Assembly: GCF_023151555.2 (NCBI RefSeq)
Contig: NZ_CP100425.1
Location: 3,224,001 to 3,288,000 of the forward strand
Origin: Photobacterium sp. CCB-ST2H9
GTDB taxonomy: Bacteria; Pseudomonadota; Gammaproteobacteria; Enterobacterales; Vibrionaceae
Direction: 5' to 3'
Length of the DNA: 64,000 nt
Shown: in pieces, positions 4,768-31,442 of the stretch
Position numbering within the stretch: position 1 is the first letter of the stretch
Layout of the letters: the number at the start of each line of letters is the position of its first letter
The notes under the pieces: generated by a model
The model's database searches: none
Seen by the model: only the letters and a program-made list of their open reading frames with translations
Told to the model about the DNA's origin: nothing
Program-made: the position numbers and the translations under genes

Positions 4768-5751
4768 CTAACTTAACGTCAGTGGCATCTCGACAAACTG
4801 CCGGTGCTCCGTCTGATGATTCATCCAGGCCGACTGGCCGATACGTAATGCGCTGTCACTGCGCCCGGACAGTCTCACGCGCGGCAGATACTCGCTGTTC
4901 ACTTTCATATACAGGGCGTACTTGGTATTGACCCCCATGTAACTGCGCACCAGATGGTCCAGCGCACGGATCATGGCTTTGTCATGGCGAATCGCCAGAT
5001 AGTGGTCATAATCTCTCGGGCAGATTTTAATCTTCAGTTTCTGTCCGGCCATCGGCGTGGTTTTCCCGACCAGCGCACCCATGCCCAGTTGCCGGTTCTG
5101 TCCGGTCCGCCCGATCTGCGTCAGGGAACAGGGGGTCAGCGGCAGGTATTCCAGCGCGCTGCGCTCAATCGCAAATTCCGCCGAGAAGTAATCTTCCAGC
5201 ATGGCTTTCAGTGCCAGCGGGCAGGTCAGCTTCATCCCCAGCAGCCCGGTATACTGAATCAGATGGCTGGCCGGGATCGGACTTTCATGGCCGCTTTGTC
5301 CGGCCAGATTCGCCAGCATCCCGGTCACCGACAGCCGATGACGGTTCCAGCTGAACGACGCTTCTTCAATCTGGGCCGTCAGATCATGCTTGTGCTGGAC
5401 CTGGCAGTAGAGGCGAAAATAGCGGTTGTTGAAGGCGTCGAAAAAATCGAGCGGTGCCTGCTCCCCCAGATCAAAATTCGCGCTGAGCGCCTCTTTAAAC
5501 ATGGTGCGGGGCATGGTGCTCTGGCTGCCGGACAAGGCCGGCAGTGACGCCTTCAGGGTGTAATCCGAGACCGCATTCACGGCCACCCCGGTCACTTCAC
5601 TGGGGTAGTAAGCTGGTAACAGTTCCGCACTGAAACGGACCTCCGGACGACGGCCGGACAGCGCCGCCTGATGCTTGAACACCTGCCAGGCCTTCTCCAG
5701 TGCAACGCTGAACTGACCGCTCAGCAGGCGGTTTACAGCAGACTCTTGCAT
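4768..5751 (-). CDS. tssG: Type VI secretion baseplate protein TssG
   Basis: This 327-aa protein of the TssG/ImpH family belongs with TssE, TssF and TssK in the T6SS baseplate wedge. The ATG at 5751 is chosen because GAGGAG lies 6 bases upstream and the product then begins MQESAVNRLLSG. A longer frame exists upstream but lacks such a site. The gene overlaps the end of tssF by 19 bases, the usual arrangement for this pair. Recognition rests on size, position and sequences such as YLPLTPCSLTQIGRTGQN and the GQKLKIKICPRDY region near the C-terminus. Confidence 0.92.
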   Translation of the reverse strand: MQESAVNRLLSGQFSVALEKAWQVFKHQAALSGRRPEVRFSAELLPAYYPSEVTGVAVNAVSDYTLKASLPALSGSQSTMPRTMFKEALSANFDLGEQAPLDFFDAFNNRYFRLYCQVQHKHDLTAQIEEASFSWNRHRLSVTGMLANLAGQSGHESPIPASHLIQYTGLLGMKLTCPLALKAMLEDYFSAEFAIERSALEYLPLTPCSLTQIGRTGQNRQLGMGALVGKTTPMAGQKLKIKICPRDYDHYLAIRHDKAMIRALDHLVRSYMGVNTKYALYMKVNSEYLPRVRLSGRSDSALRIGQSAWMNHQTEHRQFVEMPLTLS

Positions 5752-14327: not shown

Positions 14328-16319
14328 ATGACCAGCAGTGAATTGCTCTCAAAAAGTCGTCCGCTGACCGTAAAACTCGCGGACAATAAAAATTATGTTG
14401 TCACCCATTTCACGGGTGAAGAAGCAATTTCTGAAGGTTGCCGATTTTCCTTGTCTATTGCTTCAAGCGCAGAGATCAAAGAGAGTAACCTCGGTAAAAA
14501 CGTCTCCGTCTCTCTGGAGCAGTCTTTAGAAACCCGCTGCTTCTCCGGGCTGTGCACTTCGGTCGAATTCACCGGGTTCAGTCAGGAAAAACAGCTTTAC
14601 TTCTATCAGATCGAAGCGGCTGATCCGATGTCCTTGCTGGCTTACCGCCGGAACCGTCAGATTTTTCAGAACATGACCACCCGGCAAATTCTGGATACCC
14701 TGCTCGGCGACGCTGACTTTAAAAACTATTTTTCCTATGCCGTCTCAGGCAGCGGAAAACAGCATGAATACTGCGTCCAGCTAGACGAAACCGATCAGCA
14801 ATTTATCCGCCGCCTGCTCGCCAGCGAAGGGTGGCATTTTCATATCCGTCATGAGTCCGGCAAACCTTCCGTCGTGATTGCAGATTCGAACCAGCGTTTT
14901 GAGTCCATGCCAGAACCGACGCTGTATTATCAGGACGGCAGTCAGGCATCGCACCGCGCACTCAGTCACTGGAGCCACGCCACACACATGGGCAGCACCA
15001 AAGTTTCTCTGGCTGATCACACCCAGGCACTGGCCGAGGTCTTTGAAAGCGGGGAACGGAAAAGTGCGTTTGACAGCGCACCGGCTGGTCTTGAGCAAGC
15101 CTGGTTCGGTTTGGGTCAGGACAATAAGAACGAAGCCCGCGATGCGGCCAAACGCCAGATGGAGGCTCTGGACGCAGCAAAGTCAGTCTCCAAAGCCAGT
15201 TCCAGTATTGCGGCCGTCGCCTGCGGATATAAGTTCCGCCTGAATAAACACCCGCTCAGTGCGATGAATCAGGAATACATCGTCACGCGCCTCACCCATC
15301 ATATCTCAACGGAAGAATCGGGGTCTGTGCCGGTCTATCGCAATCAGTTCAGCTGTATTCCGGCGTCTTCGGTGTACCGCCCGCTGGTTCAGGAAAAACC
15401 GAAAGTCCACAGCGTGCACACGGCGTCGGTGACCGGGCCCAGCGGCGAGGAAATTTACCGCGACAAAGCCGGACGCATCAAAGTCCAGTTCCACTGGGAC
15501 AGAAACGGGAAAAGTGATGAGAACAGTTCATGCTGGTTGCCGGTGTCGCAAGGTCTGGCCAGCAAAGGCTTTGGCGCCCAGTTTACACCCCGCGTCGGAG
15601 ATGAAGTCCTGGTGCAGTACATTGACGGCGATCCGGACCGTCCGGTCGTCACCGGCTCTCTCTACAACACGAAAAACGCCGCGCCGTACAGCGCAGCCAC
15701 CCAAAGTGGCATGAAAACCCGCTCGACCCCCAAAGGGAACAGTAAACAGGGCAATGAACTGCGCTTTGACGATCAGAAAGACAAAGAGCACATCTTCCTG
15801 CATGCGGAAAAAGACCTGCAGGTTGAGGCCAACAACGATCATCTGACGACCATCAAAGGCACGAAAAACACACAGGTTGAGAAGACGGTTACGCTGAGTG
15901 CCAAAGATGCGATTCTGGTTGAAGGCGACAAAACCATCACCACCAAAAGCAAGGAAGACTGGACGGGCGACAGCGGAAAAGATCTCAACCTGAAGGCGGG
16001 CGCCAGTATGGACCTGTCCGCCAAATCATCAGTCACCATTGACGGCAGCACCATCTCGCTCAGCGGAAAAAGCAAGATTGAACTGAAAGTCGGCGCCAGC
16101 AAAATTGAAATCAGCGCCAGCGGCATCAAGATCGATGCGCCGCAGGTCGCGATCACCGGCAAAGCAAAAGCCGAAATGAAAGCGGCCATGGTCACGGTCG
16201 AAGGACAGGGAAAAGCCGATGTCAAAGCCGCAATTGTGACCGTAAACGGCAGCGCCATGACCCAGGTGAAAGCCGGCGCCATGGTGCAGATTCAGGGCGC
16301 GATAGCCAAGGTAAACTAA
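14328..16319 (+). CDS. vgrG: Type VI secretion spike protein VgrG (TssI)
   Basis: This 663-aa protein is the trimeric needle tip at the end of the Hcp tube. The gp27-like part spans about 1-370, including the YAVSGSGKQHEYCVQ-QFIRRLLASEGWHF motif region near 145-170. The gp5 OB-fold follows with DKAGRIKVQFHWD near 385, SSCWLPVSQ near 400 and PRVGDEVLVQYIDGDPDRP near 425. The end (about 510-663) is the repetitive, Lys/Ala/Val-rich beta-helix of short VgrGs. No fused toxin domain follows, so effectors would have to be carried by PAAR, Hcp or adaptors. The stop overlaps the next start as TAATG. Confidence 0.96.
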   Translation: MTSSELLSKSRPLTVKLADNKNYVVTHFTGEEAISEGCRFSLSIASSAEIKESNLGKNVSVSLEQSLETRCFSGLCTSVEFTGFSQEKQLYFYQIEAADPMSLLAYRRNRQIFQNMTTRQILDTLLGDADFKNYFSYAVSGSGKQHEYCVQLDETDQQFIRRLLASEGWHFHIRHESGKPSVVIADSNQRFESMPEPTLYYQDGSQASHRALSHWSHATHMGSTKVSLADHTQALAEVFESGERKSAFDSAPAGLEQAWFGLGQDNKNEARDAAKRQMEALDAAKSVSKASSSIAAVACGYKFRLNKHPLSAMNQEYIVTRLTHHISTEESGSVPVYRNQFSCIPASSVYRPLVQEKPKVHSVHTASVTGPSGEEIYRDKAGRIKVQFHWDRNGKSDENSSCWLPVSQGLASKGFGAQFTPRVGDEVLVQYIDGDPDRPVVTGSLYNTKNAAPYSAATQSGMKTRSTPKGNSKQGNELRFDDQKDKEHIFLHAEKDLQVEANNDHLTTIKGTKNTQVEKTVTLSAKDAILVEGDKTITTKSKEDWTGDSGKDLNLKAGASMDLSAKSSVTIDGSTISLSGKSKIELKVGASKIEISASGIKIDAPQVAITGKAKAEMKAAMVTVEGQGKADVKAAIVTVNGSAMTQVKAGAMVQIQGAIAKVN

Positions 16320-16882
16320 TGACTTTACGCAAAATTCCATACCAAAATGCCAGCGACATCATCGGGTTGTACTCACCCAGTGATCCGTTCAGCCAACTGG
16401 CGGCAGAAGGCCATGCTCCCGGGGACCTGATTGAAGCGGCCATGACGCAGGAAATGTTTGCTGATGCTGTCACATTTCTCGCTCACGCCCTGCCTGTGCG
16501 CGAGTGCATCTGGTGGGCCGCCTGCTGCGCCGCGACGCGCAGTGACTGGAATGAACACGAAGCCAATGCAGTGCGCGCCGCAAAAGCCTGGGTTCATACC
16601 CCGGACGAAACCAGCCGTCGTTACGCGGAACAGATGGCCGAACTGGCCGGACTCGAATCAGGCGCCGGATGGGCGGCTCAGTCGGCTTTCTGGAGCGGTG
16701 GCAGCATGACCAGCCCCAAAGATCCGGTCGTACCGCCGCCACCCTACCTGTACGCACAGGCCGTGGCAGGCTGCATCAACTTAAGCGCCGTCCTGCCGGA
16801 TGGTGAAGATGCCAAACAACGATACCGTGATTTTATCGACATGGGTCTGAATATTGCCGCTGGCGGCAACGGCGAGAATTAG
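16319..16882 (+). CDS. VgrG-associated protein, DUF6931-like (possible adaptor)
   Basis: This 187-aa soluble protein has a conserved-looking VRECIWWAACCAATR segment near residue 60 and an AVRAAKAWV helix near 80. A proline-rich PKDPVVPPPPYLYAQAV stretch near 140 precedes a helical C-terminus. It fits the uncharacterised family DUF6931, which I recall as typically lying between vgrG and PAAR genes; that family assignment is from memory. It overlaps vgrG by one base and precedes the PAAR gene by 8 bases. Inference: a chaperone or adaptor for loading PAAR or cargo on VgrG. No signal peptide or membrane segment. Confidence 0.65.
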   Translation: MTLRKIPYQNASDIIGLYSPSDPFSQLAAEGHAPGDLIEAAMTQEMFADAVTFLAHALPVRECIWWAACCAATRSDWNEHEANAVRAAKAWVHTPDETSRRYAEQMAELAGLESGAGWAAQSAFWSGGSMTSPKDPVVPPPPYLYAQAVAGCINLSAVLPDGEDAKQRYRDFIDMGLNIAAGGNGEN

Positions 16883-16890
16883 GAGTTCCG

Positions 16891-17187
16891 ATGTTACCTG
16901 CAGCCCGTGCTACCGATATGCACATGTGTCCCATGCAAACCCCGGCGCCGGTCCCTATTCCGCACGTCGGCGGTCCGCTGCTGCCGTTGCCGACTACGGT
17001 CCTGATTGGCAACCTGCCCGCCGCCACTCTGGGGCAAATGTGCGTTTGTGTCGGCCCGCCGGACAGTGTGATCAAAGGCAGTGCCACCGTGCTGATCAAC
17101 AATAAGCCGGCCGCCCGGATGGGCGACCAGACCTCACACGGCGGGGCCATCGTGATGGGGATGCCGACCGTGCTGATTGGTGGCTAA
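16891..17187 (+). CDS. PAAR-domain spike tip protein
   Basis: This 98-aa single-domain PAAR protein forms the sharp cone that caps the VgrG trimer. It shows the repeated pattern of the fold: ARATDMHMCPM at the start, an IPHVGGPLLPLP turn, CVCVGPPDSVIKGSATVLINNKPAARMGD and the closing SHGGAIVMGMPTVLIGG. His and Cys residues that would hold the structural metal are present. There is no C-terminal toxin extension. AGGAG lies 5 bases before the ATG. Third gene of the vgrG operon. Confidence 0.93.
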   Translation: MLPAARATDMHMCPMQTPAPVPIPHVGGPLLPLPTTVLIGNLPAATLGQMCVCVGPPDSVIKGSATVLINNKPAARMGDQTSHGGAIVMGMPTVLIGG

Positions 17188-17250: not shown

Positions 17251-18111
17251 TCAAATGCGGAGACAACTGCCGGTCGGGATATGCTCGATGCGATCGCCGA
17301 GCACCTGTTTCATGATCCGAAATGCTTTCATGCCGGTGCAATGGCCGGTGTAGAGGCGATCAATGGGGTAAGCGCTGAGTTGCTCCCCGATTTTCCGGAT
17401 ATCGGCCTCACTGCCACCCAAAGTATTGAAAAGCGGCAATCCCATCAGATGAAACCCGCCGACAACGGCTTTGATCCGGACACCCGGAAACATCTCCACC
17501 GCCGTCTCAATCATATTTAACACGCCGGAATGAGCACAGCCGGTGAAAATCACTAGCCCGTCCGGCTCCTGTATGATCATAAAGAGTTCATGCTCAAAAG
17601 GATCGGGCCTCAGACTATGTTTTTCCCCTGCGAACAAGTACCGGTTGCCGGCAGGCCGCGGATACTTTTCACTGATGTTCACGACACAGAACACATTGGG
17701 ACAGATCTCCGTGGTCTGACGAATCAGCCAGAGCCTGTCTTTAAAATCTTCCAGCGGCGTGACATCCAGGCCGACCTCAAACTGAAGTGCAGTGTATTTG
17801 AATATCGGGTATTTAAAAAAGTAAGACTCGGTCGGACACGCACGTAAGCAAACCCTGGCGTGCTGATTCTCGCGCAGAAAAACAGGTAAGCCGTTGCCAT
17901 GATCATGGTGCCGGTGAGACAGAACAGCGACATCGACACGTGCAATATCTAAATCCAGCTGCCGGGCATTCTGCAAGAAAGTCTGTCCGCCGCCGACATC
18001 AAAAAGGATGGCACACGCCCCGGTGCTGACGTGATAAGACAGACCTTTCTCCGCCTTCAAATCTGTTCTGTTGGCAATCTTTTGATTATCAGCCAGGACA
18101 TGAATGATCAT
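17251..18111 (-). CDS. MBL-fold metallo-hydrolase (DHPS-like subgroup)
   Basis: This 286-aa metallo-beta-lactamase-fold protein has the metal-binding HRHHDHG motif near residue 67, a further GCAHSG histidine near 197, FHLMG near 227 and GHCTG near 262. The overall pattern, with FDVGGGQTFLQNA before the motif and GCAHSGVLNMIE after it, fits the family that includes archaeal dihydropterin-ribofuranosylaminobenzene phosphate synthase and many uncharacterised bacterial hydrolases. AAGGAGG precedes the ATG. It follows the permease gene by 19 bases and is likely in one operon, suggesting action on an imported amino-acid-like compound or its derivative. Substrate unknown. Confidence 0.85.
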   Translation of the reverse strand: MIIHVLADNQKIANRTDLKAEKGLSYHVSTGACAILFDVGGGQTFLQNARQLDLDIARVDVAVLSHRHHDHGNGLPVFLRENQHARVCLRACPTESYFFKYPIFKYTALQFEVGLDVTPLEDFKDRLWLIRQTTEICPNVFCVVNISEKYPRPAGNRYLFAGEKHSLRPDPFEHELFMIIQEPDGLVIFTGCAHSGVLNMIETAVEMFPGVRIKAVVGGFHLMGLPLFNTLGGSEADIRKIGEQLSAYPIDRLYTGHCTGMKAFRIMKQVLGDRIEHIPTGSCLRI

Positions 18112-18130
18112 GTACGCCTCCTTTCTCCGC

Positions 18131-19327
18131 TTACATCAACAAGCCGACGGCAAGTGTGAGCAGGCTGATCCCGATAGCCACAAAGTAAATCAGCTGATAG
18201 TGCCGGTTTTTAATCATGACAATCGCCGGGAACAGCATCCCCACGGCGATGACTGCCGGACCGCTGATCATTTTAATCAGGTCAATGATATTCGGATTCA
18301 GGATCCCGATGCCGACGAGCGCAACCGTCACCAGAACCATCAGGCCTTTTTCGTCGACTTTTTTGCTAAGAGGGGAATCCTTTAATCCGTCCTTAACACC
18401 AATGACCGTGCCCATGAGCGCACCAAAAGACGCGGCAGCCACGATAAAGAAACCAACAACGTTGAACCAGCCGCCTCCCATCAGCTGTGCGACCAGTGAA
18501 ATTGAGTTGGCATTTTTATCCGCGCTGTCGAGCAATGCACTGTTCAGAGACATCGAAACAGAGAACGAAAAGAACATCACCGTCACTGCAATTGCGGAAC
18601 AACTGGCAAGCAGAGTCCGGGACGCAGATTGCTCACACACAGTTTTATTGTTATTGCTGTCTCGCATACTGGATTCGATGTACCCGGAGACGCAAGGAGA
18701 GAAATTCATGGCAAAGATGATGATCGGAATTAACGTGATGATCTCTTTCAGATGAAGTTCGGAAGGAGCAGACACAAGCTGCCAGTCCCATTTGGGAATT
18801 AACAAGCAGGACAGAAACAGAAGTACCAGAGATAAAGGCACAGCAATGTATTTCGTCAGCGACACGATCCGCCCGTGTCCTTGCGCCGAAAACAGATAAA
18901 TAACAAGACCGATGCCAATCGCAGCAGCAATGCGTGCAATGTCGGTGTATTCCGGCGGTACACTCTGGGAGATGGCAGCCACCAGTGCGATGAAGTTAAT
19001 CATGCAGATAGAAAAACTGGAAATAAACAACAAAGCGGCGTAAAGAAGCGAGGCCTTTTGCCCGGCCATGGATTTAATGGTCGCCACGGAGCCCCCGCCA
19101 GTTCCGCCGGAAATAATTAATCCGGAAAGTGTTTTATGATTCAGATAAGACAGCGGAATGCATAAAACAACCATGACCAAAAAGGCTGAAATACCGATGG
19201 TACCTGGTCCCAGCGCTTGCGGCACAAACAGCACCCCAATACCCATTGCAGTTGCGAAATGTGTTGCGACCCAACGGGAATTGACCCTATTGCGGGTGGC
19301 GGGGTGACTCACTGCAGACAAACTCAC
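18131..19327 (-). CDS. Amino-acid permease of the HAAAP/SdaC (serine/threonine) family
   Basis: This 398-aa inner-membrane protein has about eleven hydrophobic segments. The N-terminal ATAMGIGVLFVPQALGPG segment, with unwound-helix glycines, is typical of hydroxy/aromatic amino-acid permeases. The internal NFSPCVSGYIESSMRD near 205 fits SdaC/YhaO-type members that take up serine, threonine or related amino acids with protons. Start is a GTG at 19327, 8 bases after AGGAGG; a nearer ATG is out of frame. It is followed by the MBL-fold gene. Exact substrate is not visible. Confidence 0.88.
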   Translation of the reverse strand: MSLSAVSHPATRNRVNSRWVATHFATAMGIGVLFVPQALGPGTIGISAFLVMVVLCIPLSYLNHKTLSGLIISGGTGGGSVATIKSMAGQKASLLYAALLFISSFSICMINFIALVAAISQSVPPEYTDIARIAAAIGIGLVIYLFSAQGHGRIVSLTKYIAVPLSLVLLFLSCLLIPKWDWQLVSAPSELHLKEIITLIPIIIFAMNFSPCVSGYIESSMRDSNNNKTVCEQSASRTLLASCSAIAVTVMFFSFSVSMSLNSALLDSADKNANSISLVAQLMGGGWFNVVGFFIVAAASFGALMGTVIGVKDGLKDSPLSKKVDEKGLMVLVTVALVGIGILNPNIIDLIKMISGPAVIAVGMLFPAIVMIKNRHYQLIYFVAIGISLLTLAVGLLM

Positions 19328-19506
19328 GTTTCATGCCTCCTGAATCGTCTTCTCATTCAACCGATGCCCTAGTGTTTGATACAAAAAAAACATCAAACCG
19401 CCATCAATCATGGAAGACAAACATTTCACTCAATAACCAATATGAAACAAAAAGCATTAAATTAGACGACAATATCAGTCAATTCAACCAAATGAATGAT
19501 TGAGTT

Positions 19507-19587
19507 TAATATTTGTGACAACTACATATATTCCACATAAAGAGTGTGGAATATATACATCTAGATTGATATAAATCCCTCCATTGC
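19507..19587 (+). promoter_or_regulatory. Promoter region of tRNA-like gene A
   Basis: A TATAAA -10-like hexamer at 19570-19575 sits 12 bases before the mature 5' end. The box TAATATTTGTGAC at 19507 recurs upstream of tRNA-like gene B at exactly the same 63-base distance from its TATAAA. A 12-bp inverted repeat (19526-19537/19545-19556) covers the expected -35 position in this copy only. Confidence 0.55.
19526..19556. repeat. Perfect 12-bp inverted repeat with 7-nt spacer
   Basis: ATATATTCCACA and its exact complement are separated by TAAAGAG. It overlaps the likely -35 region of tRNA-like gene A, so it could be an operator. It is not followed by a clear U-run in either direction, so a simple terminator is less likely. 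Confidence 0.6.
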
Positions 19588-19684
19588 GGAGGGGTGCCTG
19601 AGTGGTCTAAAGGGAATATCTTCTTTCAGGGAGTATTGAGTGCATTCTCGCGCTCCGTAGGTTCAAATCCTGCTCCCTCCGCCA
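19588..19684 (+). tRNA. tRNA-like gene A: serine-type body with enlarged anticodon arm
   Basis: Acceptor stem GGAGGGG/TCCCTCC (7 bp), discriminator G and encoded CCA are intact. The D arm is CCT-GAGTGGTCTAA-AGG with the GG pair, and the T arm is GTAGG-TTCAAAT-CCTGC. The long variable arm GAGTGC-ATTCTC-GCGCTC forms a 6-bp stem. These are class II features with the serine-type G73. The anticodon arm (19615-19637) is 23 nt instead of 17: a 5-bp stem AATAT/GTATT closes a 13-nt region. Extending the stem as in copy B needs a C-A mismatch and G-U pairs, and would place TTC as anticodon at 19625-19627. A standard tRNA finder may call it undetermined or pseudo. It may be a divergent tRNA, a tRNA-like regulatory RNA or a decayed copy. 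Confidence 0.7.
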
Positions 19685-19729
19685 CTTCGACCCTCACCAG
19701 TCTGTGTCGCAACATTGATGTGAGGTCTT

Positions 19730-20647
19730 ATGTCTAAAGTATCCAGCCAGTTCAAAGCATGTCATTTCCGGGATGAGTTTCCTGACATCAAGCGGGAGAT
19801 ACACCCCGGGTACCAGTTCTCTTGCCTGAAAGGCATCAATGATGGCGTGAATCCCTTTCTTGTGTATCGGACCCTGAACGGCCAGGTCGACAAAATCTTC
19901 CACGAGGCGTCTTTCGACGACACTTGCGTCGATGCCTTTGTTCAGCTCATTGCCAATGAGTCTGTCATTACGGATAAACTGCTGGTTGCCGGAGCGCACA
20001 CTGTGGTTAACCTGAAAGACCGGCTTGAGATCGGAAAAGAGCCCATCGTCTCGCTTGATTTCAGCCTGAAGGCCATCGATAAAATCAACCAGCAGATCGG
20101 TATTGAGGCCGATTTCATGATCCCGCTGAACGATTTTTTCATGGAACATGACCCGTCAACGACCTCAGATCAGGCGGATAATAGATATCGTCAGGATGCC
20201 GTGTCCGAATATATTCTGCCGACACAAGCTGAGGAAATGTTCAAAGCCCACGCACGTCAGAGTGGCCGGAGCATTCAACCGTTTTATTGCAGTGAAAAAG
20301 GTATGGCTGACCGGTTTAACCGGCACATCAAAAATAAAAAGAAAGACTCTGAGCTTTTCGTTAGTTCGGATTCCGGGGCGAACTGGTACATGAGAATTGA
20401 AGATCAGTTCATTCCTGTCATTGAAAATAACAAACCCAACTGCGTTGCAGGCAACGCAGCCACGGAACGAGCCACCCGCTATCACATCACGCCAAACAAA
20501 CAGTTCGATCACTACACGTCCCGGATCGGAATCTATCCACGCTGCTCCATGAACAACGTACTGAACGGATACCGGGTTGCCTGCAAAACGTATGATCACT
20601 TTGATATGCCTGGGTATTTCGTGTTCTTTGGAGGCTCATGCGCTTAA
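19730..20647 (+). CDS. Unrecognised 305-aa protein between two tRNA-like genes
   Basis: A soluble protein without signal peptide or membrane segment. I cannot assign a family. Visible features are an N-terminal half rich in acidic helices, the segment EADFMIPLNDFFMEHD near residue 127, a basic patch RFNRHIKNKKK near 200, and a C-terminal half rich in Tyr, Cys and aromatic strands ending FVFFGGSC. GAGGT precedes the ATG. It begins 45 bases after tRNA-like gene A in the same direction, so co-transcription is likely. It ends before a strong terminator and is followed by tRNA-like gene B. Inference: it may act on, or with, the tRNA-like RNAs. Confidence 0.8.
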   Translation: MSKVSSQFKACHFRDEFPDIKREIHPGYQFSCLKGINDGVNPFLVYRTLNGQVDKIFHEASFDDTCVDAFVQLIANESVITDKLLVAGAHTVVNLKDRLEIGKEPIVSLDFSLKAIDKINQQIGIEADFMIPLNDFFMEHDPSTTSDQADNRYRQDAVSEYILPTQAEEMFKAHARQSGRSIQPFYCSEKGMADRFNRHIKNKKKDSELFVSSDSGANWYMRIEDQFIPVIENNKPNCVAGNAATERATRYHITPNKQFDHYTSRIGIYPRCSMNNVLNGYRVACKTYDHFDMPGYFVFFGGSCA

Positions 20648-20691
20648 CGAAGACAAAAGCATCTGCATAATAAAGTAATGTCACGAGCATA

Positions 20692-20724
20692 AAGGTCACA
20701 ACAGTGGCCTTTTCTTATTTTTCT
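20692..20724 (+). terminator. Rho-independent terminator after the 305-aa gene
   Basis: AAGGTCAC-AACA-GTGGCCTT forms an 8-bp stem (one G-U) followed by TTCTTATTTTT. It ends the likely tRNA-like A plus 305-aa transcript. Confidence 0.8.
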
Positions 20725-20969
20725 CTCCCGGCAACTTCCACTCAGATACCTTTTTCCCGCCAGTGTCTCGATCGATCCTGAAAGCTGAAAAACTCTTGCA
20801 AAAAGCTTTCTGCCCGACCAAGAGATCGGTGAAATGCAACCGATGGCTTCCGCCGCATCCATCCAAGAAAAATAAATAGCAATAAAACCCACTAATTGAT
20901 CAATATTAAGTCAAATAAGCAATTACAACCGATTATGATAGGTAATTTCACCTTTCATCATTCAATCAG

Positions 20970-21050
20970 TAATATTTGTGACCAGTGAGTTTATTCAGGA
21001 TATTTCCGCTGGATGGTATGAAATTGAATTGATATAAATACACCCATCGC
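20970..21050 (+). promoter_or_regulatory. Promoter region of tRNA-like gene B
   Basis: TATAAA at 21033-21038 and the TAATATTTGTGAC box at 20970 repeat the arrangement of copy A with the same 63-base spacing. The sequence between them differs, and the inverted repeat of copy A is absent. The 20725-20969 stretch before it shows no gene. Confidence 0.5.
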
Positions 21051-21147
21051 GGAGGGGTGCCTGAGTGGTCTAAAGGGAGTATCTTCTTCAACAGGATATT
21101 GAGTGTTACCATGCGCTCCGTAGGTTCAAATCCTGCTCCCTCCGCCA
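21051..21147 (+). tRNA. tRNA-like gene B: serine-type body, 8-bp anticodon stem, UCA anticodon
   Basis: Acceptor, D arm, T arm, G discriminator and CCA are identical to copy A. The variable arm GAGTGT-TACCAT-GCGCTC again forms a 6-bp stem with a different loop. The 23-nt anticodon arm (21078-21100) folds as an 8-bp stem: AGTATCTT pairs with AGGATATT through six Watson-Crick and two G-U pairs. It closes a canonical 7-nt loop CTTCAAC with U33 and A37. The anticodon at 21088-21090 is UCA, which would read UGA. Known: serine-type bodies with UCA occur in selenocysteine tRNA and opal suppressors, but those do not have this anticodon-stem extension, and the D stem here is serine-like rather than Sec-like. 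Function is unproven. Confidence 0.7.
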
Positions 21148-23789: not shown

Positions 23790-24075
23790 CGTAAACCATC
23801 CTCTGAGATCCCGACGTCCTTCGGAATCGGAATAAATGAAAACAGTTACGAGCGGCAACCAATATTGAAAAGATAAATAAAGACAATCGGTTATCTGAGT
23901 TTTTTGCGAGCTCTATTCAAAAAAAGGCACTTCATCACGGCACCGTGCACAAGGTTTTATAGATTCTGACGTTTTACTAATACAGAAGACAATGATGAAT
24001 AGCTGTATCCAATACAGCAGAACCCACCCGTTTGCCTGAAAAACACGGCAAATGAAGCATTCTAAGGGACAAACA
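23790..24075. promoter_or_regulatory. Divergent promoter region with inverted repeat at 24002-24018
   Basis: The gap between the minus-strand cluster and the yeh-like operon. It contains GCTGTAT-CCA-ATACAGC and a direct repeat AATACAG(A/C)AGA, one copy about 30 bases upstream of the other. This is a plausible regulator site for the operon that starts at 24076. Confidence 0.4.
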
Positions 24076-27000
24076 ATGAATATCAGTCAGGTGATTGACG
24101 CACTGCGAGAGAGCGGCTACTACCAGCGCTTAGTTCCCGAGCAAAGTGCGATCAACATTCGCAACTTTGTCTACGGCGACATGGACTACACCGATTTTCA
24201 ACCGAATCCGACCCTGCCCGGATTTTTCATGTCCAAGTTCTTCAAGGAAAATCTGAAAGACCTGGAAGATACCCCGGAACAGATCGCCCGGTATTTACAC
24301 GCGCTGGCCCTGTCGATGGAAGACAAGTCATGGGTCACCAGCGTCAACATCCGGAAACTAAGACAGTGGATGCCGACCTTCCATGACTACATCATGTCTC
24401 CGTCTCAACTGATGCAGCGCCTTTTCGCCGATGAGTATGATGCAGAAGATGGGATCGAACGACTCAGGAAGGAATTCTCAGAAACCGAAGTCCGCGAATT
24501 TCTTCAAAGTGACCACCTCAAAACAGACGGGCATTACAACGATGAACATCATCTGTACTGCCGCTATGTGTGGTTTCCTGAGCTCGAACAGGCGGTGGCA
24601 GAAAAAGATCCGGCCCGTTTCGAAGCACTGCTGCTCACTTACCTGCAGGCGCTGGCACACGATTATGCCAATGCCAGCTACATTCCCAACTTACGCAGAA
24701 GAAAACGTAAAGGGGACAACAACCAATACCGGACTTCGCTGCCGCCCGAAGCCATTCAGGCACTGACCGCGCTTCTGCAGGGACAGGGAGACTGGGATCA
24801 GGATCCGGAGCTGATCCGCAGCCACCTGAATCGCGAACCCATCTATAAACATGACCGGACCGCTTATACCCTGCTGGAAGCCGATCAGGATTTTTGTGCC
24901 CTGTTCCGCTGGATTTGCAATAGTGAAGACGAAATTATCCTGCAGTCCGGTGCGGCCAACAATCTGAAGCAGCTGGTCTTTTTGCTGGACCCGAACGTGT
25001 GGATTGAGCAGCATTTCCTGCAGGACTGCTACCACTATTGCAGCTGGTCTGATGAAGATGAGGTGATGGAGGAGCTGACCGCTGCAATCGAAGCCGCCCC
25101 TGACAAAAAAGATCAGCTCATTGCCTTTACCCTGCGCTACACCTTTGAACATTACGACTGCTCGTTCGGACGTACACCGGCAGGCACGCCGGAAAACAAC
25201 CCGCATAATCAGCTGATCCGCACGTTGATTGCGCAGTATGGTGCCCGCTACCTCTGGGAGACGTTCGAGCCCAGAAGCATTATTGAGCAGCGGCTGGGGT
25301 ATTACACCCTCGCCTCCCTGGCAGAAGACGGCAGCCTGGCTGAACTGAAAAACGCCTATGATCGCCAGTGGCTGGAAGGGCTCAGTGCCCGGTTCACCCA
25401 AAACGACAAAGATGCTCAATTACTGTTTGATTATCTTCTCTCCGGAGAACACGAAAGCCAGATCAGCAAATTAGCGATCAATCCAGAGTGTCGTTTCGGG
25501 ACGGTGTGTTATCTGGAAGACCCACTGCTGCAACGCCTCACCCGCGTAATGCTGAACGGCAAAAACACCAAACACTTCCCGCGCTATCTGATGGGTGCTC
25601 ACCGGCTCTTCACATCAGCACCGTTACGTCTGATTTCAGACGTGGTGCTTGAAAAACCGGCCTATCACGACATCGCTTTCAAAGCCTACGCCGAGTACGC
25701 CGAATCTTTTGCGGAGCGGAATGAGCTGGGGGATGACAGTTATCGCTGGCAGGGGATCGAGTTTACCGACCACATTGCCGCAGCAGAACTGGAATATCTG
25801 ATGCAGCATGGTATGGCCTGCGTGCACCAGCTCTCCAAACAGTCCGCCAAATATAAAGGGATTCTGCTGCCCATGCTGAAAGGGCGGATCTCCGTCGCCG
25901 AAGAAGCCCTGTTGCTGGTTGATTTCCTGAAAGAAAAACAGAAAGGGGTCATTACAGCCACCAAAGCATGTCTGAACGCCCTGCCGGAGGCACTCCGCCA
26001 GACCGTCCGCGAGAAAATTCTGACCGAACTTGCGACCTTCAATGCGCAGCAGGAAGTCCATGCGGTTGAAGTGCTGTGTGACCAAGGCATTGATTCAGAC
26101 ATGGCCCGTCAGCTGTTGGAACGGGTTCAGTCGACTGCATCCCGCACCCTGCTGGTTGAACAAGGCAATCTCGATTTCACGCAATTATATACCGGTGCTG
26201 GGGGTCAGTTTGATCTGGATGCCTATCTGGCGGAAAGCTATACCGCACCGAAAAAAGCGCCGCTCGATCTCAGTCTGCTGCCCCTGCCGGAACGGACCGA
26301 CGGCAAACCAGCAGACGACGCCGTCATGCAGCTGTGCCTGATCTATCAGAACCACGAAGGCTACAGCGTCAGTCAGGAAGCCCACGCGATTGCAGGCGCC
26401 TTTACGCCGGCATCTCTGTCGCAGTTTGCACACAGCCTGCTGAGCGGATTTGGCCCGAAAATCACCGCCAAGAATAAATGGTTGATGACGATCCCTGCTA
26501 TTCACGGTGATGCCAGCGTGATGAAAGCACTGGCGGCCCTGACGGAAAAATTCGCCAACGGTTCCAAGCACCAGCTGGCCGGTCACCTGATGAAAATAAT
26601 GGGGCTCAGCGGCCTGACGCAGGCCTACATGGAAATCGACCGCATCTGCCGCAATACCAAAAAGCAAAGTGTCAAAGATGCCGCCAACGAAGCCTTTGTC
26701 ATCGGCGCGAAGCAAGCGGGGATCACCAAAGACGAACTCGGCGATCAGCTGGTAGACGATCTGGGCTTTGACGGAGACCAGATTCCACTCGAATACAGTG
26801 GTCAGACGCTGTCACTGATCCTCAATGAGGAACTGAAATTTGTCATCCGCAAACCAGACGGCAAACTCACCAAAACCCTGCCGAAACCCAAGCAAGACGA
26901 TGATGCCGAGCAGGCGGAGCAGGCCAAACAGCATTTCAACGCGCTGAAAAAGCTGCTGAAAGACATGGTCGGCCTGCAGGTCAGACGCATGGAAGATGCT

Positions 27001-27711
27001 TTTGTGGCGTGGCGGATGTGGTCCCTCGACCGCTGGCAGGCTCTGTTTCTGGGGAATCCGGTGATGCACAAAATTGCCAGCCAGCTGGTCTGGGGGGTGT
27101 ACGAAAATAACCAGCTGGTCTGTACCTTCCTGCCGAATCCGGAACCGGTCGACATGGAAGATGAACCGGTCGACCTCCCGGCCAACGGCAACATCGGGCT
27201 GGTCCATCCAACCGAACTGTCTTCCGGACAACTGGAAGCCTGGCAGAGTTACTTTGACGACTGGAATCTGGAACCTTTGTTCGGCCAGCTGTCGCGGGAT
27301 GTCGTCGAACTGCAACCGGCCACGGGCAATCAGTACCATGTGCCGTGTTTCAGCCGCAAGTCGCCATCCACCGTCATTAACCGGCTGCGTAAAAACGGCT
27401 GGGCGGTCGGTTCCGTGCGCGACGGTGGTTCATTCGACGAACTCTACAAAGAGCTGGACGGGCTCAACGTCGGCATTGAAATCACCCTTGATGAAAGTGT
27501 CTGGCATGGCGGATACGGCTACGAAAGTGATGAATCGACAGTCACCGCGAAAACCGTCGAGTTCTACCGCACCGGTCGTCTGCACCGGGGCAGCTATATC
27601 TACGATGACTTGCAGGAAGAAGAATACGCCGATCTTCGCCTGACAGCTGACGACCTGCCGGAACGGGTTGCCCGCGAGCTGCTGCTGGAAGCCAAGAAAG
27701 CCTTCCTGTAA
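24076..27711 (+). CDS. DUF4132 protein, MolR/YehI family (first tandem copy)
   Basis: This 1211-aa cytoplasmic protein starts at the ATG at 24076, where AAGGGAC precedes it and the product begins MNISQVIDALRES like its neighbour. The N-terminal 850 residues are alpha-helical repeats without recognised catalytic motifs. The C-terminal part contains the DUF4132 region: KDMVGLQVRRMEDAFVAWR, then RWQALFLGNPVMHKIASQL, VWGVYENNQLV and a tail with a SPSTVINRLRKNGWAVGSV segment. E. coli has the same family as molR and yehI. The old molybdate-regulator label for MolR is not supported by anything here. It opens a seven-gene operon. Confidence 0.9.
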   Translation: MNISQVIDALRESGYYQRLVPEQSAINIRNFVYGDMDYTDFQPNPTLPGFFMSKFFKENLKDLEDTPEQIARYLHALALSMEDKSWVTSVNIRKLRQWMPTFHDYIMSPSQLMQRLFADEYDAEDGIERLRKEFSETEVREFLQSDHLKTDGHYNDEHHLYCRYVWFPELEQAVAEKDPARFEALLLTYLQALAHDYANASYIPNLRRRKRKGDNNQYRTSLPPEAIQALTALLQGQGDWDQDPELIRSHLNREPIYKHDRTAYTLLEADQDFCALFRWICNSEDEIILQSGAANNLKQLVFLLDPNVWIEQHFLQDCYHYCSWSDEDEVMEELTAAIEAAPDKKDQLIAFTLRYTFEHYDCSFGRTPAGTPENNPHNQLIRTLIAQYGARYLWETFEPRSIIEQRLGYYTLASLAEDGSLAELKNAYDRQWLEGLSARFTQNDKDAQLLFDYLLSGEHESQISKLAINPECRFGTVCYLEDPLLQRLTRVMLNGKNTKHFPRYLMGAHRLFTSAPLRLISDVVLEKPAYHDIAFKAYAEYAESFAERNELGDDSYRWQGIEFTDHIAAAELEYLMQHGMACVHQLSKQSAKYKGILLPMLKGRISVAEEALLLVDFLKEKQKGVITATKACLNALPEALRQTVREKILTELATFNAQQEVHAVEVLCDQGIDSDMARQLLERVQSTASRTLLVEQGNLDFTQLYTGAGGQFDLDAYLAESYTAPKKAPLDLSLLPLPERTDGKPADDAVMQLCLIYQNHEGYSVSQEAHAIAGAFTPASLSQFAHSLLSGFGPKITAKNKWLMTIPAIHGDASVMKALAALTEKFANGSKHQLAGHLMKIMGLSGLTQAYMEIDRICRNTKKQSVKDAANEAFVIGAKQAGITKDELGDQLVDDLGFDGDQIPLEYSGQTLSLILNEELKFVIRKPDGKLTKTLPKPKQDDDAEQAEQAKQHFNALKKLLKDMVGLQVRRMEDAFVAWRMWSLDRWQALFLGNPVMHKIASQLVWGVYENNQLVCTFLPNPEPVDMEDEPVDLPANGNIGLVHPTELSSGQLEAWQSYFDDWNLEPLFGQLSRDVVELQPATGNQYHVPCFSRKSPSTVINRLRKNGWAVGSVRDGGSFDELYKELDGLNVGIEITLDESVWHGGYGYESDESTVTAKTVEFYRTGRLHRGSYIYDDLQEEEYADLRLTADDLPERVARELLLEAKKAFL

Positions 27712-27724
27712 CACTGCGTCTCTT

Positions 27725-27755
27725 CCAGCCAGCCCTCACCTGACGGGCTGGCTGG
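27725..27755 (+). terminator. Intercistronic hairpin between the two DUF4132 genes
   Basis: CCAGCCAGCCC and its perfect complement form an 11-bp stem with a 9-nt loop, followed by TTTCTCCGTTTT. The U-run is interrupted, so it is likely a partial terminator that lowers expression of downstream genes or protects the first message. Confidence 0.6.
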
Positions 27756-27788
27756 TTTCTCCGTTTTACTCACGCTCAGGACAAAAGA

Positions 27789-30700
27789 ATGAATATCAGC
27801 ACGGTACTCGATCAGCTACGGGACAATCCGCTGTACGATGAGCCGGAAGCCGGGCAGGTCATCAGCCAGATCCGGGATTTTGTATACAGCGATACCAGTT
27901 TGAACCAATTCCAGGTCACGCCCTGCTTATCGCCCATTGATTTAGAAGTCTTTCTCAACCAGACCCTGGAGACGCTGGACGATACTCCGGACCACATTGC
28001 CCGATTTCTGCACGCCTTGATCCTGTCGACCGAAAATCAGCAATGGCTCAAAAGTGTCAGAATCAAAAAACTCCGCGCCGTCATGCCGACTTTTCAGGAC
28101 TGCATCAAAGCCGATTTTACGCTCATGGCGGAGATATTCTCCGACTATTTCGGCAGTGATGCCGGGATCAGCCATCTCCGCGCCATCTTCAGAGAAGATG
28201 ACCTGCGTCAGTTCTTCGCCGATGAGCGCCATAAAACCAACGGACACTATCACGGCCCCCACCACCTGTACTGCCGGGGAGTCCTGTTCCCTGAAATCAG
28301 ACAGGCGCTGGCGCGGCGTGACGCCGCGCACTTTGAAGAAGCGCTGATCACTTATCTGCAGGATTTAACCAGTGATTATGCCAACTGTGATTCGTTTCCC
28401 GATGCCGATGCGCTGGACAAGAACGACATCAGCCAGTACCGGGCTGCACTGCCGGTCGAGGCAATCACAGGACTCACCGAGCTGCTGCGCGGACAGGGCG
28501 ACTGGGAGCAGACCCCAGCGCTGATCCGGGCGCATCTGCACCGGAAGCCTCTTTTCTATCATCAGCAGGCCGCATTTACGCTGCTGGAAGCCGACGAGGA
28601 TTTCACCGATTTATTCCACTTTCTCAGTGACAGCAAGGATCCCATCGTCCACCAGTCTGTTGCGGCCAACCATCTGAAGGAACTCGTCTTTCGGCTGGAA
28701 CCTTCGCTCTGGTTTAAGAAACAGCTCAAATTAAATGGCTTCCCCGATTGCCGCTGGTCCAGCAAACGGGAGGTTCTTGAAGAACTCAATCAGGCCGTTG
28801 CTGCAAATCCGGATATTCAGGCGCCACTCATTGCATTCATTGTCCGATACAGCATCGAACACTATGCCTGTTCTTTCTCTCGCATACCGGCCGATGCCCG
28901 AAAACCCAACCCGCACGATCAGATTCTGCAAGCTCTGATTGAAACCTACGGCGCCCAAACCATCTGGGAGAGTTTCGAACCGCGCGATAATACCGTCGCA
29001 CTTCGGGGTTATTACACGCTCAACCGGCTCGCCGCTGACGATCAGCTGGCGGCTCAGAAAGCCGAACGCGATCGGCAGTGGATTCAATCGTTCAGCCCGG
29101 CGCTGACAGACAATGCTCAGGATGCCGAGCTGCTCGCTGAATACCTGCTGACCGGGAAACACGAAGCAGCAATCGGCACGCTTACACTTCAGCTTGCGGA
29201 AGACAGCAAGTTCCCGCCAGTCTGCTATCTGGAAGATCTGCAGTTACAACGCCTGACCCGGGTCATACTGAACGGAAAAAATGACCCGCTTTTCGCCGAC
29301 TTCTTCAAGGCTGCGGAACGAAAATTTACAGCGACCCCGCATCGGCTGATCTCTGCGATTGTGCTGGAGCGACCTGAATACCAGGCCATCGCTTTCCCGG
29401 TTTACGCCGACTTTGCCGAAACATTTGCTGAAATCAACGATCGCCGTTCAGACGAGTATGAATGGCGCAACGTCAGATTCCGGCGTCATATTGCTGCCAA
29501 TGAACTGCAGTATCTGCATCAGCATGGCGTGGCTGTGGTTCAACAGCTGTCAACCCTGCCCGCCCGGTTCAGAGCCATTGTGCTGCCGTTTTTCAAAGGC
29601 CAGATCACGACCATTGAAGAAGCGCAGCTGCTGGTTTCCCTGCTGAAAGACAAACACAAAGGCGCCATTGCCGCGGTGAAGGACTGCATTCTGGCGTTAC
29701 CGCATCCGATCCGGGCTGCCGTCATGAATCAGATAATCGAAGACCTGACGACCTTCAGTGCCCCGCAGGAAGCGCATGCGATTGAACTCATCTGTGCGTC
29801 TGGCGTGAATACGCCAACCGCCTGTCAGTTACTGGATAAGGTCAGTACCGCCGCTTCCCGCGCCCTCTTGATCGAACACGGCAAGATTGATCTCTGCAGC
29901 CTTTATACCAATTCTGCGGACACCAATGCAGCAGGCGGATTTGATCTGGATGCCTATCTGGCCGACAACTATCACCAACCGAAAAAATCACCGGTTGATT
30001 GCAGCCTGCTGACGCTGCCGGAACGTAGGGATGGTAAGCCGTCAGCCGATGCCGCCATGCAACTGTGCCTGATTTATCAGCATCACGACGGCGACCACAG
30101 CAGCCAGGAAGCGAACGCGATTGCCGGCACTTTCACTCCGGATTCGCTGGCACAATTTGCGCACAGTATCCTCAGTGCCTACGTCGACAAAATCACGAAC
30201 AAAAACAAATGGCTGCTGTCGATTCCGGCCATCCATGGTGATGCCAGTGTGATAACCGCACTGGCAACACGACTTGAAAAATTTGCCGGAAGTTCGAAAC
30301 ACCAGCTGGCCGGGTACGCGATGAAACGCATGGGACTCAGTGGCCAGAAGGTCGCCTTCATGGCCATTGACCGCATCAGCCGCAACAGCAAAAAGCAAAG
30401 CGTGAAAGATGCGGCCCGGGCAGCTTTTACCATCGGTGCCAGACAGGCCGGGATCAGCCCGGATGAACTCGGCGATCAGCTGGTGGACGATTTGGGTTTC
30501 GACGGCGACCACATTCCGCTCGACTACTGCGGTCAGACGCTGTCGCTGGTTCTCAATGACGATCTGAAATTTGTCATCCGCAAACCAGACGGCAAACTCA
30601 GCAAAACCCTGCCGAAGCCGAAACAGGGCGATGACGCCGCGCAGGCAGTGCAAGCCAAACAACACTTCAACACCCTGAAAAAGCTGCTGAAAGACATGGT

Positions 30701-31442
30701 TGGACTGCAGGTGAAGCGCATGGAAGATGCCTTTGTCGCCTGGCGGACCTGGTCCTTTGAGCGCTGGCACGCACTCTTTCTGGGCAATCCGGTGATGCAC
30801 AAGATTGCCGGTCAGCTGATCTGGGGCGTCTATGATGATGATCAGCTCATCCGCACTTTCCTGCCGAATCCGGAACCTGTCGATACGGCAGATGAACCGG
30901 TGACGATTCAGCCCGATGCAAGAATCGGCCTGGTCCATCAGACAGAGCTGTCTGACCCGCAACTGGCCGCCTGGCAAAGCTATATGGACGACTGGAACCT
31001 GACGCCGCTGTTTGGCCAGCTGACACGGGAAATTGTCCGGCTCGAACCCGCCACCAGCAATCAGTACAAAGTGCCGGGCTTCGGCCGCAAATCGCCCTCG
31101 ACCGTGATCAACCGGCTGCGTAAAAACGGCTGGTCGGTTGGTTCCGTACGGGATGCCGGTTCTTTTGACGAAATCTACAAAGAGCTGGACGGCCTCAGTG
31201 TCGGGATTGAAATCACCTTCGATGAGGACATCTGGCACAGCAGTGACGGCTACGAAAGCGATGAACCCAGGGTCACCGCCAAAACCATTGAGTTTTACCG
31301 TACCGGTCAGTTGCCGCGGGGCAGTTACGTCTACGATGACCTGCAGGACAAAGCATACGCCAACCTGCGTCTGGCCGTCGACGATCTGCCGGTCCGGATT
31401 GCCCGCGAGTTGCTGCTGGAAGCTCAAAACGCTTTCCAGTAA
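27789..31442 (+). CDS. DUF4132 protein, MolR/YehI family (second tandem copy)
   Basis: This 1217-aa paralogue is colinear with the preceding gene from MNISTVLDQLRDN to the last ARELLLEAQNAFQ. The C-terminal 450 residues are the most alike, including KDMVGLQVKRMEDAFVAWR, LGNPVMHKIAGQL and SPSTVINRLRKNGWSVGSV. The N-terminal halves have diverged far more. This indicates an old duplication with a constrained C-terminal DUF4132 and a faster-changing helical region, which may hold the partner- or target-binding part. The start is the ATG at 27789 (AGGACAAAAG upstream). Confidence 0.9.
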   Translation: MNISTVLDQLRDNPLYDEPEAGQVISQIRDFVYSDTSLNQFQVTPCLSPIDLEVFLNQTLETLDDTPDHIARFLHALILSTENQQWLKSVRIKKLRAVMPTFQDCIKADFTLMAEIFSDYFGSDAGISHLRAIFREDDLRQFFADERHKTNGHYHGPHHLYCRGVLFPEIRQALARRDAAHFEEALITYLQDLTSDYANCDSFPDADALDKNDISQYRAALPVEAITGLTELLRGQGDWEQTPALIRAHLHRKPLFYHQQAAFTLLEADEDFTDLFHFLSDSKDPIVHQSVAANHLKELVFRLEPSLWFKKQLKLNGFPDCRWSSKREVLEELNQAVAANPDIQAPLIAFIVRYSIEHYACSFSRIPADARKPNPHDQILQALIETYGAQTIWESFEPRDNTVALRGYYTLNRLAADDQLAAQKAERDRQWIQSFSPALTDNAQDAELLAEYLLTGKHEAAIGTLTLQLAEDSKFPPVCYLEDLQLQRLTRVILNGKNDPLFADFFKAAERKFTATPHRLISAIVLERPEYQAIAFPVYADFAETFAEINDRRSDEYEWRNVRFRRHIAANELQYLHQHGVAVVQQLSTLPARFRAIVLPFFKGQITTIEEAQLLVSLLKDKHKGAIAAVKDCILALPHPIRAAVMNQIIEDLTTFSAPQEAHAIELICASGVNTPTACQLLDKVSTAASRALLIEHGKIDLCSLYTNSADTNAAGGFDLDAYLADNYHQPKKSPVDCSLLTLPERRDGKPSADAAMQLCLIYQHHDGDHSSQEANAIAGTFTPDSLAQFAHSILSAYVDKITNKNKWLLSIPAIHGDASVITALATRLEKFAGSSKHQLAGYAMKRMGLSGQKVAFMAIDRISRNSKKQSVKDAARAAFTIGARQAGISPDELGDQLVDDLGFDGDHIPLDYCGQTLSLVLNDDLKFVIRKPDGKLSKTLPKPKQGDDAAQAVQAKQHFNTLKKLLKDMVGLQVKRMEDAFVAWRTWSFERWHALFLGNPVMHKIAGQLIWGVYDDDQLIRTFLPNPEPVDTADEPVTIQPDARIGLVHQTELSDPQLAAWQSYMDDWNLTPLFGQLTREIVRLEPATSNQYKVPGFGRKSPSTVINRLRKNGWSVGSVRDAGSFDEIYKELDGLSVGIEITFDEDIWHSSDGYESDEPRVTAKTIEFYRTGQLPRGSYVYDDLQDKAYANLRLAVDDLPVRIARELLLEAQNAFQ

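Follow-up and report, generated by a model that had tools for sequence, protein, structure and literature searches.

In a 64-kb window of Photobacterium sp. CCB-ST2H9 (C1:3224001-3288000 of a 5.17-Mb genome in three contigs, two of them of 3.6 and 1.5 Mb), two serine-type tRNA-like genes flank a gene whose product, here called ORF305, has no match in Pfam or NCBIfam. Copy 1 (19588..19684, + strand) and copy 2 (21051..21147, +), each 97 nt with an encoded CCA, are the only tRNA genes that ARAGORN reports in the window. In a search of the host genome they score 36.3 and 35.8 bits against the Rfam tRNA model RF00005 (gathering score 29); an Rfam scan of the window at the gathering threshold listed neither copy. 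ORF305 (19730..20647, +) starts 45 nt after the end of copy 1, and the two may be co-transcribed. Divergent from copy 1 lies a gene for a serine/threonine-type amino-acid transporter (18131..19327, −), followed by one for a metallo-beta-lactamase-fold hydrolase (17251..18111, −; PF00753), and homologues of both adjoin ORF305 at other loci. The initial annotation had described two serine-type tRNA-like genes around an unknown gene. The RNAs are borne out by ARAGORN, the RF00005 scores, and a structural parse, and the gene does lack a family match, but ORF305 proves to be the key to the system, and the boundary had been misplaced: the unit is hydrolase, transporter, tRNA, synthetase-like enzyme, and tRNA, from 17251 to 21147.

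In the parse, both copies have a 7-bp acceptor stem, a 3-bp D stem with GG in the D loop, a 6-bp variable arm, a 5-bp T stem, the T loop TTCAAAT, G73 as discriminator, and CCA, in agreement with the tRNA parts named earlier; the acceptor stem, then called perfect, is complete at 7 bp but ends on a G-U pair. The departure is in the anticodon arm, which is 23 nt in each copy (19615..19637 and 21078..21100, +), where 17 is the normal length, with 9 of 10 opposed positions able to pair in each. ARAGORN calls copy 1 a tRNA-Glu(ttc) and copy 2 a tRNA-SeC(tca), contradictory types that arise because the arms, that of copy 1 included, lack a sound anticodon. The whole-RNA folds are only modestly more stable than shuffles (z-scores of −1.86 and −1.67 for copies 1 and 2, with 4 and 13 of 200 shuffles equally stable).

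Over the acceptor, D, and T body the two copies are equal at 56 of 56 positions. Their overall identity is 87%, and the differences fall in the arm and in the variable loop, so that, as first reported, the variable-arm stem is kept while its loop differs. Two upstream boxes are also shared: TAATATTTGTGAC (19507..19519 and 20970..20982, +) and an extended −10-like box, TTGATATAAAT (19566..19576 and 21029..21039, +), which ends 11 nt 5' of the tRNA-like gene and may act as a promoter. A scan for promoters and terminators found no clear excess over shuffles, and the TTGATATAAAT box before copy 1 is not among its listings. Decay would bring drift throughout; with an identical body and shared boxes, this does not look like a decayed pair, as the initial annotation had also noted. 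The host genome holds ordinary tRNA-Ser genes for UGA, GCU, and GGA, and the two copies, the only full-length ones found there, are thus not needed for translation. (Among the host tRNA genes, two overlapping partial tRNA matches also occur at G000:C1:3299380-3299487.) A search of 147 other genomes of close kin found neither the RNA by DNA at E 1e-6 nor ORF305 by protein at E 0.001. Taken with the identical bodies and shared boxes, this is the pattern of an imported cassette. It had been proposed that a lack of extended-arm homologues in related genomes would signal decay, a test that would mislead here: the 147 hold none, yet distant taxa do.

The AlphaFold2 model of ORF305 (pLDDT 89.6) matches the Rossmann catalytic fold of class I aminoacyl-tRNA synthetases (aaRSs) by both Foldseek and VIA, a result repeated on an alphaproteobacterial member of the family. 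The top structural kin by VIA are ArgRS, CysRS, and the ligase MshC; a cyclodipeptide synthase structure (7azu) appears at Foldseek rank 29, with the alphaproteobacterial model only. The model has no anticodon-binding domain, the chain ending a few residues past the last core strand, and in the alphaproteobacterial member some 25 residues of low confidence follow the core. By eye, EIGKE at residues 100-104 (HVGxE in some homologues) may stand for the HIGH motif, and no residues stand for KMSKS; resemblances of this kind to motifs of CysRS and ArgRS serve only as a lead. A profile of the family found no match among PDB sequences, and scattered members match unrelated Pfam families at E 0.017 or weaker. 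One could suppose that ORF305 is itself a synthetase, charging the RNA with serine or another amino acid, the charged RNA then serving a metabolic enzyme or being a carrier form of the amino acid. The fold and its closest kin would suit this idea, as would the T stem common to two phyla described below, which suggests a common protein partner. We nevertheless think it unlikely: neither signature motif is recognizable, the chain stops (by eye) about where KMSKS would start, charging by seryl-tRNA synthetase (SerRS) is already explained by the serine-type body, and alphaproteobacterial loci exist without the RNA.

A large protein collection holds 53 ORF305 homologues, our own entry included, and 76 with a profile. 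Named sources are Rahnella, Pectobacterium, Salmonella, Shigella/E. coli, Edwardsiella, Alphaproteobacteria, Veillonella, Fusobacterium, Cetobacterium, and Lentisphaerae. Three metagenomic proteins (P0052, P0050, and P0074) begin as an EamA transporter, a PF05857 protein, or a PF18860 protein and continue as the C-terminal portion of ORF305; they look like recombination or assembly chimeras. These and fragments were excluded from the alignments, leaving 38 rows in A2 (37 of the 53 hits plus the window's own protein) and 26 of the 76 in A4. Between two E. coli plasmid types, the ratio of nonsynonymous to synonymous substitution is 0.14 for ORF305 and 0.14 for the transporter, indicating purifying selection; for the L022/L023 pairs it is saturated.

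We compared 15 ORF305 loci: the window, eight from genome contigs (L012-L019; a single ORF305 protein as query found none of these, an alignment all eight), five of 20 plasmid records (L020-L024), and a relic (L026). A serine-type tRNA-like gene was found in nine, namely the window and L023 with two copies each and L012, L017, L018, L020, L021, L022, and L024, by reading of the flanks, a regular-expression scan, and then a covariance model, R1. The model was built from nine of these RNAs, the second L023 copy being left out, and so matches them by construction; their finding preceded it. The L024 RNA is identical to that of L020, and these two and L021 are near-copies, so that there are four kinds of RNA: window, Lentisphaerae, long-arm enterobacterial, and small E. 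coli plasmid. The parsed copies have a 7/5 acceptor/T-stem layout. All 10 have the variable arm and GCCA, and 9 of 10 a mismatch-free acceptor, the exception being the second L023 copy. Of the 56 body positions, the Lentisphaerae copy shares 52 with the copies from Serratia, Enterobacter, and Salmonella; no copy shares more than 43 with any of four serine tRNAs (the host's UGA, GCU, and GGA and the Edwardsiella UGA).

These comparisons bear on the idea that the RNAs are tRNA copies in decay, or what mobile elements left behind at their attachment sites. Insertions often target tRNA genes, an ordinary tRNA-Ser lies 4 kb from the L018 cassette, and the second L023 copy (5566-5668) is truly decayed. 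Yet the body is intact in 10 of 11 copies and nearly identical across two phyla, the pairing of the arm is kept, and the RNA also sits on small plasmids with no integrase among their listed genes (an incomplete list). We regard this explanation as extremely improbable. The position of the RNA bears likewise on a regulatory role, in which it would be a sensor of serine charging or a processing element controlling ORF305. Copy 1, close upstream and perhaps in one transcript with ORF305, would fit; the enterobacterial RNA, however, is divergent from ORF305, and that of L012 lies about 3 kb downstream. Neither the encoded CCA nor a full tRNA body would be needed for such a role, which seems to us very unlikely.

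The anticodon arm measures 16, 23, 28, 29, or 30 nt across the copies, and none has a serine anticodon loop. In L017 the arm is a perfect 12-bp stem with a 5-nt loop, and L023, compared with it by hand, is built alike but for one mismatch and two double compensatory changes. In L022 and L018, 11 and 10 of 13 positions pair, respectively, and a GNRA tetraloop (GCAA and GAAA) stands where the anticodon would be. The E. coli plasmid arm folds as GG-G-CUC-UCUU-GAG-G-CC; an example of this RNA (L020:357-445, −) is annotated as tRNA-Lys in RefSeq. To judge from these sequences, what is conserved is a serine-tRNA body that has lost its anticodon loop and not the length of 23 nt; the initial annotation counted the six extra nucleotides of both window copies correctly, but they do not define the family. 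Its suggestion of a nonsense suppressor is unlikely, as no anticodon is conserved and some relatives have tetraloops there. In the T stem, all 10 parsed copies have A51-U63, where the four serine tRNAs have G51-C63. According to a review, G51-C63 is a strong pair for EF-Tu, and its replacement by A51-U63 is one mark of staphylococcal glycine tRNAs that may escape translation, together with A49-U65 and loss of G18 G19 (PMC4052509). SerRS is described as not recognizing the anticodon (PMC7609411, section 7). From its anatomy, then, the RNA has the look of a serine carrier with no ability to decode.

The window transporter matches TIGR00814 at E 9.8e-43, yet with 146.7 bits against a cut-off of 525.8, and PF13520 below its cut-off. 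On Enterobacter and Salmonella plasmids, the neighbors of ORF305 are annotated "threonine/serine transporter" and "MBL fold metallo-hydrolase." Eight of the 15 loci carry a serine/threonine-type transporter gene, which is split in L018; L012 has an MFS gene and L014 an EamA gene, and the same queries found no transporter in the five others. That three unrelated transporters fill the same role speaks more for export of a product than for import of serine. The hydrolase occurs in 11 of the 15 loci, the relic among them, and was found neither in L014 nor on the small E. coli plasmids. No locus of the 15 lacks both genes.

The cassette is scattered and mobile. ORF305 occurs in 20 of 72,556 plasmid records, 15 of them from E. 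coli. The three small plasmids that were opened (5.8, 6.0, and 8.8 kb) carry Rop- and Mbe-type genes, and we take them to be ColE1-like; besides ORF305, their gene lists contain the transporter (annotated hypothetical) and genes for mobilization and replication; that of L024 has two further hypothetical genes. Of 5,426 E. coli genomes, 21 have the RNA and 22 the ORF305 region, all on plasmids, and the 21 fall within the 22; the exception is NZ_CP010203.1, a 4.4-kb plasmid whose match begins inside ORF305. Three of the 72,556 plasmids carry the long-arm RNA, each together with ORF305. Window copy 2 with its flanks, used as query, found no match among the plasmids. Viral contigs gave no ORF305 and no long-arm RNA by exact pattern, and phages no match to copy 2 or to the ORF305 homologue P0025. 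In overlapping genome sets, the ORF305 profile found, the host aside, one relic among 393 genomes of the order, none among 368 of the class or 397 of the phylum, and only that relic among 44 of its own family. As a control of specificity within strict filters and 10 scored candidates per genome, R1 matched seven of 394 genomes of the order (the host included) at E ≤ 1e-14. The window copies scored 91.4 and 89.2 bits and the six other genomes at most 76.9, and in the five of these that were opened, ARAGORN identifies ordinary tRNA-Ser (four GCU and one GGA). At very permissive settings, ARAGORN gave noise.

A home on small plasmids and islands, with the RNA adjoining the gene, could also suit a toxin-antitoxin or defense module, in which ORF305 would discharge or sequester seryl-tRNA and the anticodon-free RNA would be a decoy or antitoxin; a similar guess has been made for defective allo-tRNAs in the part of PMC7609411 that treats them. 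But this leaves no place for the transporter and hydrolase, ORF305 has no PADLOC match (the window hydrolase has weak ones, E 0.0012 and 0.0068), and ORF305 is unbroken in two loci without the RNA, so that we judge such a module distinctly unlikely. The decoy and regulatory roles that the initial annotation had put forward share the defect that they leave the partner genes unexplained.

The anatomy of the RNA, its linkage to ORF305, the predicted fold, and the scattered, plasmid-borne distribution can be joined in one mechanism, which we consider moderately probable: a non-decoding seryl-tRNA feeds ORF305, which makes a small serine-derived product. Replacement of the anticodon loop by a hairpin would leave a serine tRNA unable to decode. 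Host SerRS, which does not read the anticodon, would charge it, and the serine would be kept off the ribosome because the RNA has no anticodon and a weak EF-Tu pair in its T stem. ORF305, a freestanding class I synthetase-like protein, would, to go by fold and linkage, take the seryl group from the RNA and transfer or condense it into the product, much as SbzA or cyclodipeptide synthases do with their substrates. The transporter would export the product, the metallo-hydrolase would finish it or protect the producer, and the cassette would travel among bacteria on plasmids and islands. In broader terms, we see about even chances that mobile elements carry a dedicated metabolic-cofactor tRNA, a seryl-tRNA with an anticodon hairpin and weakened EF-Tu contact, paired with a new minimal family of class I synthetase-like transferases and kept together with it in at least two phyla as a portable small-molecule factory. 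Of the roles first proposed, the specialized seryl-tRNA is thus the one that we favor, since the mobile cassette links the RNA with a transporter, a hydrolase, and a protein of synthetase fold. The feature originally singled out is real and unusual, and its overall interpretation is partly supported.

Several observations weigh against this mechanism. First, the Foldseek TM-scores are low (best hits 0.42 and 0.36 on the query), HIGH and KMSKS are unrecognizable or absent, and hhalign of ORF305 with the host CysRS gave no useful alignment. Second, the window RNAs share only 44-45 of 56 body positions with the other kinds (37 with the decayed one), barely above the 42 of the host UGA tRNA. Third, the arm hairpin, present in seven of nine whole-RNA minimum-energy folds, that of copy 2 among them, is missing from those of copy 1 and L012. 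Moreover, the E. coli arm can be drawn as a 7-nt loop with CUU, which ARAGORN, too, calls tRNA-Lys and which is presumably the reason for the RefSeq label. Fourth, the staphylococcal marks A49-U65 and loss of G18 G19 are absent from the cassette RNA. Fifth, a serine/threonine-type transporter could import. Finally, R1 found no RNA in 6 of the 15 loci (L013, L014, L015, L016, L019, and L026) at E up to 10, apart from a single match of 16.4 bits in L026. Of these loci, L013 and L016 have no break and their flanks can be read, so that ordinary tRNA may suffice for ORF305.

Most of the RNA-less loci are alphaproteobacterial (L013, L015, L016, and L019, with L015 and L016 from one metagenome-assembled genome); L014 is from Tannerellaceae. 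L015 is cut at a contig end, L014 has an in-frame stop, L019 has a frameshift, and L026 is a short relic; among unbroken, readable loci only, a cut chosen after the result was seen, 8 of 10 have the RNA. In L014 (7971-8870), the homologue with its one in-frame stop is followed by the EamA transporter gene. The relic (L026:700-2000, in the 2.7-Mb genome G461) has an in-frame stop and lies beside a hydrolase-gene remnant; the start of this 3.5-kb piece looks by eye like part of an ordinary tRNA-Ser, and ARAGORN reports no gene there. With ORF305 broken in three loci (L014, L018, and L019), one relic, and one decayed second RNA, the cassette is often lost as well. An ORF305 tree of 20 rows (seven labelled with RNA and two without) stars the window and enterobacterial clades (branches 1.53 and 1.11) and places L012 alone at a fork that it does not resolve. 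The labels require a single change, as they do in 46 of 500 shuffles, and for both reasons the tree does not separate gain of the RNA from loss. Two histories would fit: loss of the RNA in the alphaproteobacterial clade, which then draws on host seryl-tRNA, or a later addition of the RNA, which may have happened repeatedly.

Elsewhere in the window, type VI secretion genes adjoin the cassette (vgrG, a DUF6931 gene, and a PAAR gene, 14328-17187), and a tandem pair of genes encodes DUF4132 proteins of 1219 and 1217 aa (24052-31442). The sole family above gathering in the Rfam scan is the RpsF leader RF02893 (55289-55207, −; 42.5 bits).

Parts of this scheme have precedents. SbzA, an IleRS-like transferase of the SB-203208 pathway, has a class I aaRS fold like ORF305 and modifies a small molecule with aminoacyl-tRNA made by a housekeeping synthetase (PMC6331615, PMC12945691). 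As described there, its IleRS architecture is complete, HIGH and KMSKS being slightly altered, and it draws Ile-tRNA from the bulk pool; ORF305 amounts to a core of 300 aa, belongs to no known family, and has a tRNA gene next to it. Cyclodipeptide synthases are likewise small class I aaRS-like proteins that consume aminoacyl-tRNA (PMC12945691, PMC9437257). They are akin to TyrRS and TrpRS, whereas ORF305 is nearest to ArgRS, CysRS, and MshC by VIA, and the passages of those papers that concern them report no dedicated tRNA, in contrast to the cassette, which brings a tRNA gene. The staphylococcal non-proteinogenic tRNA-Gly, thought to escape EF-Tu and feed a non-ribosomal pathway, shares A51-U63 with the cassette RNA; the pertinent passages of PMC4052509 describe neither anticodon loss nor a mobile cassette. 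Allo-tRNAs have serine-type bodies with non-serine anticodons, and some are unusable in translation (PMC7609411, section 7), but their acceptor branch of 12 bp is 8/4 or 9/3, whereas cassette RNAs are 7/5 without an anticodon loop. In valanimycin synthesis (VlmL/VlmA), seryl-tRNA is the serine donor for a natural product (PMC12945691, PMC4052509, in the parts on that pathway); VlmA is a GNAT-fold transferase, unlike ORF305.

Synthetase-like enzymes that use aminoacyl-tRNA in biosynthesis are thus already known, as are tRNAs that escape translation. New, as far as the literature was searched, are an anticodon-stripped tRNA as a conserved part of a mobile cassette and the minimal ORF305 enzyme family; titles and abstracts held nothing on an anticodon-free tRNA in a biosynthetic cassette, with preprints and most subscription papers outside the search. 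The RefSeq tRNA-Lys label on the plasmid gene means that similar RNAs may be mislabelled elsewhere. In the relevant passages of a 2014 review, how aminoacyl-tRNA is steered out of translation is unclear in most cases and unknown for the seryl-tRNA of valanimycin (PMC4052509). If our reading is correct, that question would be answered directly by a cassette equipped with its own non-decoding tRNA, and the answer could be tested in E. coli, since the tRNA, the enzyme, and the transporter occur together on natural plasmids of about 6 kb. The cassette would also provide a minimal tRNA-dependent enzyme whose donor tRNA leaves translation undisturbed, and would point to a candidate new class of secreted serine-derived compound.
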